The translations under genes were made by a program, and so were the position numbers. A stretch of 38,055 bases of DNA. It comes from a virus. This document shows positions 33,245 to 37,419 of this stretch, in pieces (within the stretch, counting starts at the first letter, position 1; every line of letters starts with the position of its first letter). A model generated the notes under the pieces. It searched no databases, was not told where the DNA came from, and saw nothing but the letters and a program-made list of their open reading frames with translations. The stretch is taken from the IMG/VR virus record IMGVR_UViG_3300046809_000267, positions 1 to 38,055 of that record. The stretch is one strand, 5' to 3'.

Positions 33245-34645
33245 ATGACGACAACAGTGCGCGACCAGTCCGCCGCAGTGGAAGCGATGGCCGAGAACTG
33301 GCCGATCGTCGACGCACTGCTCGGCGGCACGCCGGCCATGCGAAAGGCTGGCAAGACCTATTTACCGCAGTGGCCCGGCGAATCCGACGACGCATACAAG
33401 GCACGCAAGGATACGGCCACGCTGTTTCCTGCATTCCCTCGCACGGTCGAGGTGCTGGCCGGCAAGCCATTTAGCAAGCCTGTCACGCTGACCGACGATG
33501 TACCCGCGCGCATCAAGGATTGGTGCGATACGGACATCGACTTGCAGGGGCGCAATCTGCACGCGTTCGCTGCGAGCCTGTCAGAAGAAGCGCTGTCGCA
33601 CGGCATCACCGGCATTCTGGTCGATTACCCGAAGGCGACCGGCGTTCGCACCAAGGCCGAGGAAAACGCCGCGGGCATCCGGCCGTATTGGGTGCATATC
33701 CACGCTGGCAACATTCTCGGCTGGCGATCGAAGCGCATCAACGGCGCGGAAGTGTTCACGCAATTGCGGCTGCTCGAGCAGGTCATCGAGGACGACGGCG
33801 AGTTCGGCGAGAAGGCGATCGAACAGGTGCGCGTGCTCACGCCGGGCGCCTGGGCGACCTATCGCGAGTCGGAGAAGCCTGATCCGAAGACCAACAAGCC
33901 AGAATGGATCTTGCACGAAGAAGGCGTTACGACGCTCGACGTGATCCCGTTCGTGCCGATCTACGGCCGCCGCACAGGATTCATGACCGCGGTCCCGCCG
34001 CTGCTCGAACTGGCGCACATGAACGTCGAGCACTGGCAAAGCAAGAGCGACCAGCAGACGATTCTGCACGTCGCGCGCGTGCCTATTCTGTTCGGCAAGG
34101 GGCTGGACGGCCAACCGGTGATGGTCGGCGCTGGCTCGATGGTCTCGTCGGACAACGAACACGGCGATCTGAAGTACGTCGAGCACACCGGCGCGGCCAT
34201 CGAAGCAGGGCGGCTATCGCTGCTCGACCTTGAGGACCGCATGCGCCAGGTCGGCGCCGAACTGCTCGTCATCAAGCCGGGCAAGACGACCGTCGCGCAG
34301 ACCGTCGCCGAAAACGAAGCCGGCATGTGCGCGCTGCAGCGTCTGATCGAGGACGTTGAGGATGGCATCGACGCCGCGCTAGACCTGACAGCGAAATGGA
34401 TCAAGGAAGCGAAGGGCGGCAACGTCCAGATCTTCAAGGATTTCGGCGTTGCAACGCTGGCCGAGGCATCGATCGATCTGCTGCGCGACATGAACGTCGA
34501 TGGCACGTTCTCCGACGAATCGCTATTCAACGAAGCGAAGCGCCGCGGCTACATCAGCCCAGAAACGACGTGGGATGACGAGAAGAAGCGCATCGCACAG
34601 AACGTGCCGAAGGGCGAACTCGGCGCGGTCGGTATTACTGACTGA
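33245..34645 (+). CDS. Portal protein (DUF4055)
   Basis: 466 residues. The N-terminal ALLGGTPAMRKAGKTYLPQWPGESDDAYKARKDTATLFPAFPRTVEVLAGKPF is typical of the DUF4055 portal family. Further landmarks are ILVDYPKA, WILHEEGVTTLDVIPFVPIYG and AELLVIKPGKTTVAQTVAENE. It forms the dodecameric gate through which terminase packages DNA. No strong ribosome site; it follows the large terminase gene by 12 bases. A terminator follows it. Confidence 0.88.
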   Translation: MTTTVRDQSAAVEAMAENWPIVDALLGGTPAMRKAGKTYLPQWPGESDDAYKARKDTATLFPAFPRTVEVLAGKPFSKPVTLTDDVPARIKDWCDTDIDLQGRNLHAFAASLSEEALSHGITGILVDYPKATGVRTKAEENAAGIRPYWVHIHAGNILGWRSKRINGAEVFTQLRLLEQVIEDDGEFGEKAIEQVRVLTPGAWATYRESEKPDPKTNKPEWILHEEGVTTLDVIPFVPIYGRRTGFMTAVPPLLELAHMNVEHWQSKSDQQTILHVARVPILFGKGLDGQPVMVGAGSMVSSDNEHGDLKYVEHTGAAIEAGRLSLLDLEDRMRQVGAELLVIKPGKTTVAQTVAENEAGMCALQRLIEDVEDGIDAALDLTAKWIKEAKGGNVQIFKDFGVATLAEASIDLLRDMNVDGTFSDESLFNEAKRRGYISPETTWDDEKKRIAQNVPKGELGAVGITD

Positions 34646-34668
34646 CGCCACGAATACAAAGTCTACCG

Positions 34669-34700
34669 GCCGCACAGCTAACCCTGTGCGGCTTTTTTAT
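34669..34700 (+). terminator. Intrinsic terminator after the portal gene
   Basis: CCGCACAG (34670-34677), loop CTAACC, CTGTGCGG (34684-34691), extendable by one G-C pair, then CTTTTTT. One of the strongest terminators in the window, standing between portal and scaffold. Confidence 0.88.
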
Positions 34701-34708
34701 TGCCGGTT

Positions 34709-34769
34709 CCTCGGATGAGGGTCGGTGCAAATCACGGCCGGATGGCCTAACAGCTCGGGTTGGATGACC
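34709..34769 (+). promoter_or_regulatory. Three GGAT-loop hairpins in the scaffold leader
   Basis: CCTC-GGAT-GAGG (34709-34720), GGCC-GGAT-GGCC (34736-34747) and GGTT-GGAT-GACC (34758-34769, one G-U pair): three 4-bp stems, each with the same GGAT loop, 22-27 bases apart. The last ends one base before the ATG and holds the only ribosome-site-like bases. Such an array suggests binding of an RNA-binding protein (CsrA/RsmA type, or a phage coat protein). Confidence 0.55.
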
Positions 34770-34770
34770 T

Positions 34771-35526
34771 ATGAAACTCAAACTGAACGATGACGGATTC
34801 GCTGTAGTGCAAGACGGCAAGCCGGTGTATGTGCATGACGATGGCCGCGAAGTGGCCTTCGACGCTGTTGGCACTGTGCAAACCATCTCGCGCCTGAACG
34901 GCGAAGCAAAGACGCACCGCGAACGCGCTGAAGCGGCCGAAAAGGTTGCCAAGGCATTCGAAGGCATCACCGACGCCGAAGCCGCACGCAAGGCGCTCGC
35001 CACCGTTGCGAATCTCGACGCGAAGAAGCTCATCGACGCCGGCGAAGTGGACAAGATCCGCGCCGAAGCCATCAAGGCCGTCGAGGACAAGTACGCGCCG
35101 ATAGTCTCCGAACGCGATTCGCTGCAAAAGTCGCTGGTCGACGAAAAGGTCGGCGGCAGCTTTGCGCGCTCGAAGATGATCGCCGACAAGCTCGCGATTC
35201 CTGCCGATCTTGTGCAAGCGCGGTTCGGCGAAGCGTTCAAGGTCGAGGGCAACGATGTCGTCGCCTACGACAAGTCGGGCAACAAGCTGTTCAGCCGGAG
35301 CAATCCGGGTGAGGTAGCGAAGTTCGACGAAGCGCTCGAAATCCTCATCGATCAGTACCCGTATCGCGATTCGATCCTCAAGAGCACCGGCGCATCCGGC
35401 GGCGGCGCTCAAGGCGGATCGGGTGGCGGCTCTGGCGGCAAAACCATCACTCGCGCTGCTTACGACGCTCTGCCGCCTCATCAACAGGCGCAGACCGCTC
35501 GAAGCGGTGTGACGATCACTGATTAA
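34771..35526 (+). CDS. Scaffold-like protein
   Basis: 251 residues. Short beta N-terminus, a long charged helical central part (about 45-130, EAKTHRERAEAAEKVAKAFEGI ... VEDKYAPIVSERDSLQKSLV), then a Gly/Ser-rich linker (near 210-225) and a short tail. Composition and place between portal and coat fit a phage scaffolding protein. Its stop overlaps the stop of the convergent HNH gene. Confidence 0.75.
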   Translation: MKLKLNDDGFAVVQDGKPVYVHDDGREVAFDAVGTVQTISRLNGEAKTHRERAEAAEKVAKAFEGITDAEAARKALATVANLDAKKLIDAGEVDKIRAEAIKAVEDKYAPIVSERDSLQKSLVDEKVGGSFARSKMIADKLAIPADLVQARFGEAFKVEGNDVVAYDKSGNKLFSRSNPGEVAKFDEALEILIDQYPYRDSILKSTGASGGGAQGGSGGGSGGKTITRAAYDALPPHQQAQTARSGVTITD

Positions 35527-36122
35527 TCAAGCCACGCCCAGGCGCGACGATGCTTGATCTCAGAAATATGACTCTGATCGACGTCGAATCGCTTGGCGAT
35601 AGCTGCATTGGTCATGGTTCCTATAAGGCTCCGGATCTGCCTGACGTCAGCTTCGCTAAGTTTTGCCCGCCACTGCCTTTCTCCGCGATTGGTAGTGTTG
35701 TGGAGGATCTTGTCGGCGTGATTGATCGTCGGAGTTGCCCAGTACAGATGCCGCGGATTGGTGCAGGCTGACTTGCCTCGGCCGCATGAATGCGCGGCTT
35801 CGTGCTTGGGAGACGGCGGTTCACCGTGAGCGACGATGCACATCAATCGCGATGCGATCGTCAGCTTTGCGGTACCGGGGTAATGGGCTCTCCCGTATCC
35901 ATCTGCGCCAATAGAAAACGGCCACGTTAGGCATTCGTCGCCAGCGTATCCGGCGTTGGCTCGTATCCAGTCTATGGCTGGTGATGGCGTCTTTTTGACG
36001 GCAAACGGATCGCCGTGAGCTTTCCACCGCTGATAGTGCATTGAACACCATCCCTTCTTCCCGTTTGCGTCGCGGTGAGCGTTCCTTTCGCAGCCCGCAA
36101 CAGCGCAATCAGTGAATCGCAT
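35523..36122 (-). CDS. Free-standing HNH endonuclease, antisense in the head operon
   Basis: 199 residues from the ATG at 36122; longer starts up to 36251 would run through the coat-gene leader and are less likely. The C-terminal half has HEAAHSCGRGKSACTNPRHLYW, the HNH_3 zinc and catalytic pattern. KLSEADVRQIRSLIGTMTNAAIAKRFDVDQSHISEIKHRRAW at the end is a DNA-binding helix-turn-helix repeat. It is a probable homing endonuclease inserted between scaffold and coat genes. Lower-quality ribosome site (GAGG, 11 bases away). Confidence 0.82.
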   Translation of the reverse strand: MRFTDCAVAGCERNAHRDANGKKGWCSMHYQRWKAHGDPFAVKKTPSPAIDWIRANAGYAGDECLTWPFSIGADGYGRAHYPGTAKLTIASRLMCIVAHGEPPSPKHEAAHSCGRGKSACTNPRHLYWATPTINHADKILHNTTNRGERQWRAKLSEADVRQIRSLIGTMTNAAIAKRFDVDQSHISEIKHRRAWAWLD

Positions 36123-36152
36123 TTTGGCTTCTGCCTCTTTGCTAGTGGTAAT

Positions 36153-36177
36153 GGATAACACCTCACACATGTTATCC
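36153..36177. repeat. Inverted repeat upstream of the HNH gene
   Basis: GGATAACA (36153-36160) and TGTTATCC (36170-36177) with a 9-base spacer. It lies 31 bases upstream of the HNH start on the minus strand. It may be an operator or an mRNA hairpin that limits expression of the nuclease. Confidence 0.5.
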
Positions 36178-36206
36178 CTAATCGCATTCCTAATCAATTG
36201 CTGAAT

Positions 36207-36245
36207 CCTCGGATGAGGGTTGGCGCACCCGGGCCGGATGGCTCG
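36207..36245 (+). promoter_or_regulatory. Two GGAT-loop hairpins in the coat leader
   Basis: CCTC-GGAT-GAGG (36207-36218) is identical to the first hairpin of the scaffold leader, within a shared 15-base block. CGGGCC-GGAT-GGCTCG (36230-36245, 6 bp with one G-U) is the counterpart of the second. No third hairpin follows; the coat gene has a normal ribosome site further on. The loop of the second contains an in-frame ATG (36238). Confidence 0.55.
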
Positions 36246-36288
36246 ATTCACCTTACCTGAACAACTTTCGATTTATCTGGAGCCTGAT

Positions 36289-37419
36289 TTGGCCAATACT
36301 TTAACCGCTCTCATCCCCGACCTGTATGCATCGCTCGACGTTGTGTCGCGCGAACTGGTCGGTTTCATCCCGGCAGTCACGCTCGATCCTCAAGTCGCTC
36401 GTGCTGCGGTCGGTGAAAACGTTCGTTCGTTCGTCGCGCCGGCTTCGACTGCCGAAGACGTGACGCCGGGCCAATTGCCGCCCGATGACGGTGACCAGAA
36501 CATCGGGAACCAGGTGATCACGATCACCAAGTCGCGCATGGTCCCGTTCCGCTGGACCGGTGAAGAACAGAAGGGCGTGAATCACGGCCCTGGCTACACC
36601 GGCATCCGCGCGAACCAGATCGCGCAGGCAATGCGGACGCTGGTGAACGAAATGGAAACCGACGTCGGCACGCTGGTGTATCAGGCTTCGCGTGCGACGG
36701 GCACGGCTGGCAGCACGCCGTTCGCTTCGACGCTCGGCGATCCGGCGCAAGCGCGCAAGATCCTGTCGGATAACGGCGCTCCGCTGTCCGACATGCAACT
36801 GGTCATCGATACCACGGCCGGCGCGAACCTCCGCACCCTCGCTCAGTTGACGAAGGCCAACGAAGCCGGCACGACCGAACTTCGCGCACAAGGTACGCTG
36901 CTCGAACTCAGCGGCTTCATGGTTCGCGAATCGGCTGGCGTCCCGATCCACACGTCCGGCACTGGCGCAAGCTATGTGCTCAACGGCGCACACGCGAAGG
37001 GCGCAACGACCATCAACGTTCAGACAGGCACCGGCACGGTCGTCGCTGGTGATGTCGTGACGTTCAACGGCGACACGCGCAAATACGTCGTGACGTCGCC
37101 CCTCTCGGCTGGCTCGTTCACGATCGCCGCGCCTGGCCTGCAACAGGCGCTGCTGACCGGCGCTGCTGTGACCGTTGGCGCTGCCTACACCGGCAACGCA
37201 GCGTTCTCGCGCAACGCATTCGTGCTCGCAACTCGCCTGCCGGCGCTGCCGGAAGAAGGCGACATGGCCGATGACCGCACGACGATCGTCGACGAGCGCA
37301 GCGGCCTCGCGTTCGAGGTGGCGATGTACAAGCAATACCGCCGCGTTCGCTACGAAATCGCGATCGCGTGGGGTAAGCAGAACATCAAGCCGGAACACTC
37401 GGCCATTCTGCTCGGCTAA
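36289..37419 (+). CDS. Major coat protein, P22 coat-like
   Basis: 376 residues from a TTG at 36289, chosen for GGAG 6 bases upstream and for the family-typical beginning ANTLTALIPDLYASLDVVSRELVGFIPAV. The inserted domain (about 225-300) and the VDERSGLAFEVAMYKQYRRVRYEIAIAWGKQNIKPEHSAIL ending fit the HK97-fold coat of P22-like heads. In-frame starts at 36220 (TTG) and 36238 (ATG) would extend it by 23 or 17 residues but lack good ribosome sites. Confidence 0.9.
   Translation: MANTLTALIPDLYASLDVVSRELVGFIPAVTLDPQVARAAVGENVRSFVAPASTAEDVTPGQLPPDDGDQNIGNQVITITKSRMVPFRWTGEEQKGVNHGPGYTGIRANQIAQAMRTLVNEMETDVGTLVYQASRATGTAGSTPFASTLGDPAQARKILSDNGAPLSDMQLVIDTTAGANLRTLAQLTKANEAGTTELRAQGTLLELSGFMVRESAGVPIHTSGTGASYVLNGAHAKGATTINVQTGTGTVVAGDVVTFNGDTRKYVVTSPLSAGSFTIAAPGLQQALLTGAAVTVGAAYTGNAAFSRNAFVLATRLPALPEEGDMADDRTTIVDERSGLAFEVAMYKQYRRVRYEIAIAWGKQNIKPEHSAILLG

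Follow-up and report, generated by a model that had tools for sequence, protein, structure and literature searches.

The window analysed here, the whole 38,055-nucleotide viral record IMGVR_UViG_3300046809_000267 of IMG/VR, carries in order the genes for the small and large terminase subunits, a portal protein, a scaffold protein, an HNH endonuclease and a P22-type coat protein (Table 1). The succession terminase, portal, scaffold and coat is that of phage P22, with the HNH gene inserted between scaffold and coat. On the strength of this synteny and of its match to the 'head scaffolding protein' family phrog_206 (E 2.7e-19), the DUF6651 product is predicted to be the scaffold. No mention of DUF6651 was found in the literature searched, of which coverage was incomplete, and a description in a subscription journal is possible. 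The longest open reading frame of the coat gene begins at a TTG at position 36220, inside one of the hairpin elements described below; the relatives indicate that the true start is a TTG further downstream.

Table 1. Features of the portal-scaffold-coat region of the window.
Feature	Position	Strand	Details
Portal gene	33245-34645		DUF4055/phrog_145
Intrinsic terminator at the end of the portal gene	34668-34699	+	34668-34693, then T run; directly upstream of the element
Core element, scaffold copy	34701-34749	+	outer stem, hairpin 1 and hairpin 2; cmsearch 41.0 bits
Outer stem around hairpin 1	34701-34727	+	TGCCGG (34701-34706) with TCGGTG (34722-34727)
Hairpin 1	34708-34721	+	TCCTC(GGAT)GAGGG; loop 34713-34716
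Hairpin 2	34736-34747	+	GGCC(GGAT)GGCC; loop 34740-34743
Hairpin 3	34757-34770	+	GGGTT(GGAT)GACCT; loop 34762-34765, likely the Shine-Dalgarno sequence
Scaffold gene	34771-35526	+	DUF6651, phrog_784/phrog_206; ATG at 34771
Scaffold helix motif	residues 43-50		NGEAKTHR; the scaffold is the proposed RNA ligand
HNH endonuclease ORF	35523-36251	-	part of a cassette that splits scaffold from coat; true start probably near 36122
Core element, coat copy	36199-36245	+	outer stem; loops GGAT 36211-36214 and 36236-36239; cmsearch 48.8 bits
Coat Shine-Dalgarno and start	36279-36291	+	GGAG 36279-36282; likely true start TTG 36289-36291
Major coat gene	36289-37419	+	P22 coat family (PF11651, phrog_283)

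An initial annotation made from the letters of the window had described three GGAT-loop hairpins ahead of the scaffold gene, directly behind a terminator, and had taken the constant loop on differing stems for the mark of a selected RNA structure. All three hairpins (34708-34770) and the terminator with its T run were indeed found, and the element proved to extend beyond that description, hairpin 1 being enclosed by an outer stem and a second element lying before the coat gene. The accompanying statement that the last hairpin covers the ribosome site fits the window, where its loop is the likely Shine-Dalgarno sequence, but does not hold as a general rule: hairpin 3 is confined to scaffold leaders and to only part of those, and many relatives either lack it or have a separate Shine-Dalgarno sequence downstream of it.

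When folded by itself, the window leader was no more stable than its shuffled versions (MFE z 0.39), so that the case for a selected structure rests on comparison with relatives. Leaders of scaffold homologues were gathered from IMG/VR, GTDB genomes and cultured phages, and 202 of the 236 distinct scaffold leaders carried at least two GGAW hairpins, as against 0.5% of random windows from the same loci and about 0.04% of shuffled sequences, these leader counts being drawn from related sequences that are not independent. The claim of a selected structure thus withstood a comparison in which homologous leaders could have turned out to lack the stems or the GGAT loops. GGAT was flanked by four paired bases at 78% of 392 distinct scaffold-leader sites, at 61% of sites in coat leaders and at 2.5% of sites elsewhere, in a test that put no requirement on pairing. 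The pair closing the loop was C-G, U-G or U-A and hardly ever had the reverse orientation. In the clade of the window the loop consensus is YGGAWR. A T run was present just upstream of hairpin 1 in 181 of 201 scaffold leaders, and the median distance from the end of the last hairpin to the scaffold start codon was 11 nt.

Both strands of 642 kb were searched with a covariance model built on the core (outer stem plus hairpins 1 and 2), which returned 116 matches, all of them on the sense strand and all in scaffold or coat leaders; in the window it detected no copy besides the two listed in Table 1. Two-sided, compensatory changes were observed at 13 of the 14 pairs of the core alignment, and at four of the five outer-stem pairs across the family. 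Their total amounted to 275 versus 79 after shuffling, and the covariation score reached 0.554 compared to 0.207 for shuffled and at most 0.131 for slid alignments, for an alignment that is itself fitted to the structure. Departures affecting a single member of a pair were G-T in 74 instances and A-C in 13, an excess indicating selection on the sense RNA.

The array was found in hundreds of tailed phages before the scaffold gene and often also before the coat gene, Escherichia coli phage HK639 included. No Rfam 15 family matched at the gathering threshold; relaxed settings gave a weak match resembling a trpB terminator, and a cmscan of 12 loci gave chance matches. The TwoAYGGAY RNA (RF01731) is similar in having two hairpins with YGGAY loops but differs in architecture and setting, and its model matched neither the window, HK639 nor Klebsiella phage 5 LV-2017, nor any of the 12 loci submitted to cmscan. 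When 399 genomes of the phylum were searched with the RNA model, only the known carrier was recovered, a result in which absence means little since few candidates were scored per genome. P22 was considered as a relative sharing this leader and was rejected, as only a 13-nt gap without such hairpins precedes its gene 8.

The presence of the second copy depended on the distance between scaffold and coat genes. Where this gap was shorter than 70 nt, a coat copy was present in none of 124 loci, versus 53 of 77 where it measured at least 70 nt, with several further copies recognisable by eye among the long gaps. Coat copies end a median of 41 nt upstream of the coat start, most of them at 31-73 nt, and 42 of 54 lie in a gap devoid of any terminator. 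The conserved hairpins are at or near the ribosome site for the scaffold gene and farther from it for the coat gene. This distance rule fits a control exerted on each independent translation start, and a close coat gene would presumably be served through translational coupling with the scaffold gene. A small open reading frame encoding a hydrophobic peptide (e.g. MKSTFSKLRVMALATVASVVALYPVATVAK...) was also seen between scaffold and coat in loci L064, L066, L068, L069, L107, L224, L240 and L251.

The HNH cassette provides a natural experiment in this respect. In two close relatives (L010 and L012) the coat gene is 99% identical to that of the window over 900 nt and the last stretch of the scaffold gene is identical, yet the two genes are joined by a 14-nt junction and the coat copy is absent. 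The corresponding junction of the window measures 762 nt and comprises the HNH gene, the hairpin element, a new Shine-Dalgarno sequence and recoded first codons of the coat gene. The same HNH gene occurs in three other loci (L013, L001 and L003), and L467 displays the same element and coat start as the window. Among 80 HK639-like loci the scaffold-coat gap is about 15-17 nt in all except L327, which carries an HNH gene 50% identical to that of the window at the same junction and, once again, a hairpin element before the coat gene. Since the insertion is accompanied by a coat copy and its absence by none, the cassette appears to bring the leader needed by the coat gene that it separates. Replacement of the 14-nt junction together with recoding of the first coat codons is as expected of homing with co-conversion. 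A mobile element would thus apparently carry a regulatory part made necessary by its own insertion.

We then considered which protein might read the loops. A pattern scan of IMG/VR, which made no use of the scaffold, yielded 120 matches, 114 of which adjoin a DUF6651 gene; four of the others lie at contig ends, one is a coat leader of the window type behind an HNH gene, and one is in L431. At this last site (L431, position 2749) a perfect element has no DUF6651 gene downstream, and the contig is possibly chimeric or rearranged. Coat families PF11651 and PF20036 replace one another, with phrog_212 in a sister clade, and the DUF6651-type scaffold is constant; since the element persists through these exchanges of coat family, the scaffold is favoured over the coat protein as ligand.

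The scaffold has a predicted long N-terminal helix (residues 32-62) bearing the near-invariant motif NxEAKx[HN]R. In four loci in which this motif is strongly altered, GGA hairpins are absent and other loops are found: GUGAU/GCGAU/GUGAA with NAESAERRRR (L088), AGCAA/AGUAA with TGENTAYKKR (L170), GAAA/GUAA/GAAA with GRDIQNYKTR (L410) and AAAU with TGELKTTR (L125). L387 is a counterexample, having a divergent helix motif and yet three GGA hairpins. This co-change of helix and loop, as read from a handful of loci and the one exception, is suggestive of the scaffold being the loop reader. Searches of the PDB by sequence and by fold returned no relative of the scaffold, and no RNA-binding fold can therefore be assigned to it.

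More distant scaffolds that belong to phrog_206 define a sister clade including Salmonella phage SSU5, E. coli phage PhiR41_1, Klebsiella pJN2-26, Nickievirus, Rhizobium phages and ANB28. Their leaders display two or three hairpins before the scaffold gene, spaced by similar steps and carrying 8-nt loops of the form RAGNRANN, where the background is 0.16 per leader-length. Such arrays were observed in L097, L535, L536, L539, L540, L550 and L555-L559, among phage-plasmids and other phages of 100-120 kb. Long near-perfect hairpins also occupy the scaffold-coat gap of some members of this clade (L557, 1761-1898; L558, 1761-1904; L540, 1758-1858).

The element most likely allows a head protein, probably the scaffold, to control the amount of head proteins, and autogenous control of the assembly genes, which the initial annotation had also raised, is the best reading of the locus. 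We infer binding of the leader by a protein, the identity of that protein with the scaffold and translational repression as the effect; the specific proposal that the scaffold represses translation of the scaffold and coat mRNA through this leader is, in our judgement, evenly poised. The element would then be an RNA leader acting in cis on the head operons of tailed phages, in which the same small loop is presented on short stems of free sequence, its core of about 45 nt consisting of two hairpins, of which the first is enclosed by an outer stem, with a third often placed on the scaffold ribosome site. Free scaffold, through its conserved N-terminal helix (NxEAKxHR), would be the most likely binder of the row of loops. 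Binding would turn down translation of the scaffold, and of the coat where the latter starts independently, so that head proteins would be synthesised in step with their consumption by assembly. The weak third stem would turn into a block once protein is bound to it, in the manner of the MS2 operator. The weakest point of this model is the coat copy, which lies too far off for protein binding to a hairpin to block the ribosome by itself: with the core a median of 41 nt upstream, either a larger, spreading assembly or an effect on another step such as mRNA decay would be called for.

The MS2/R17 coat operator is a short hairpin at a ribosome site, with an essential loop, at which translation is repressed on binding of a virion-assembly protein. 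By analogy, the same mode may operate in the phage head leader described here, which differs in belonging to a double-stranded DNA tailed phage, in having two or three hairpins with another loop, in its copies before two genes and in its putative ligand. Leaders of ribosomal-protein operons are likewise structured, and an assembly protein encoded by the operon exerts the feedback; here the genes are phage head genes, the tandem identical loops do not mimic rRNA and the ligand is again putative. Unassembled scaffold of P22 is reported to lower its own synthesis post-transcriptionally, and it is from this phenomenon that the sign of the regulation is borrowed by analogy. The P22 scaffold gene also lies between portal and coat, but its genes 8 and 5 abut and its scaffold is of another family. 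The balance of P22 scaffold and coat has been known for decades; we know of no RNA element identified for it.

A broader formulation, which we hold tentatively and rate somewhat below even, is that DUF6651-type scaffolds are sequence-specific RNA-binding repressors whose short basic N-terminal helix reads a small loop repeated every ~20-24 nt, that helix and loop change together, and that HNH cassettes carry a spare copy. With the same reserve, the loop classes GGAW, G(N)GAW, GNRA, AGYAA and RAGNRANN would follow lineage, and the spare copy would keep the coat gene controlled.

Among competing explanations, the same type of leader could respond to a phage protein other than the scaffold, either the portal or some RNA-binding protein not recognised as such. 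Portal family phrog_145 shows the same constancy as the scaffold and accompanies every element checked, the sister clade included, and a late-gene regulator encoded elsewhere in the genome might also serve as ligand. We nevertheless consider this unlikely, given that the helix motif of the scaffold itself changes where the loops change, notwithstanding the counterexample, and that feedback on scaffold and coat would suit the scaffold better than the low-copy portal. A slightly less favoured and also unlikely explanation is that the element acts positively or on RNA stability, recruiting a factor or the ribosome, or protecting a processed mRNA 5' end, and thereby raises head-protein synthesis. 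This would agree with the position of the element against a T run or terminator in most scaffold leaders and with that of most coat copies, at a distance from the start that leaves room for activation or stabilisation; however, 5' protection needs no constant loop, and the scarcity of terminators in the gaps that contain coat copies argues against a stability element.

Pairing of the loops with an antisense RNA is improbable. A kissing interaction of the constant loops with a complementary loop is conceivable, and CCATC occurs between coat element and coat start in 14 leaders versus 3.6 in shuffled sequences, but this represents only a quarter of coat leaders, no partner RNA was found, and an antisense partner would have to change with each loop class. 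The excess of downstream ATCC, which could pair with the GGAU loop, is weak (20 versus 11.8). Still less probable is an action on RNA polymerase as an antitermination RNA akin to HK022 put. Although the element is a structured RNA close to terminators in a late operon, it is transcribed after the adjacent terminator and so cannot act on it, and it is tied to scaffold and coat starts rather than to terminators, with no other copy in the window. For these reasons, and because most coat copies have no terminator in their gap, the earlier suggestion that the leader also works on transcription is weak.

The initial annotation had named CsrA/RsmA as a possible binder. Under this hypothesis, the host protein would bind the GGA loops and repress the head genes until late infection. 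The likeness is real: GGA occurs in short hairpin loops in the window and in most relatives, several per leader with one near the ribosome site, and recalls the CsrA SELEX consensus RUACARGGAUGU (PMC7652899). The gene for CsrA (PF02599) was, however, present in none of 60 Burkholderiaceae genomes and missing from 15 of 24 genomes carrying the element. The ANGGA or ACARGGAUG context is not conserved either: position -2 takes part in a stem pair at 97% of the sites in scaffold leaders, most of which have C, G or T there. The bases following GGA are constrained, and relatives have non-GGA loops (G(N)GAW, GNRA, AGYAA and RAGNRANN). Host absence and loop variety thus refute CsrA as a general mechanism; it may be incidental at most in CsrA-bearing hosts, and we find it barely credible as the explanation.

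The proposed autogenous control by the scaffold is accessible to experiment in laboratory strains, HK639 carrying a compact and strongly conserved element and SSU5 and PhiR41_1 the sister arrays. The element would enlarge the RNA catalogue by a family not yet listed, and pairs of loop and protein derived from it could be of use in synthetic biology. Prophages of the insect symbiont Candidatus Fukatsuia symbiotica (L138, L143, L144, L147 and L150), present in several copies, display decayed hairpins with GGAG loops.
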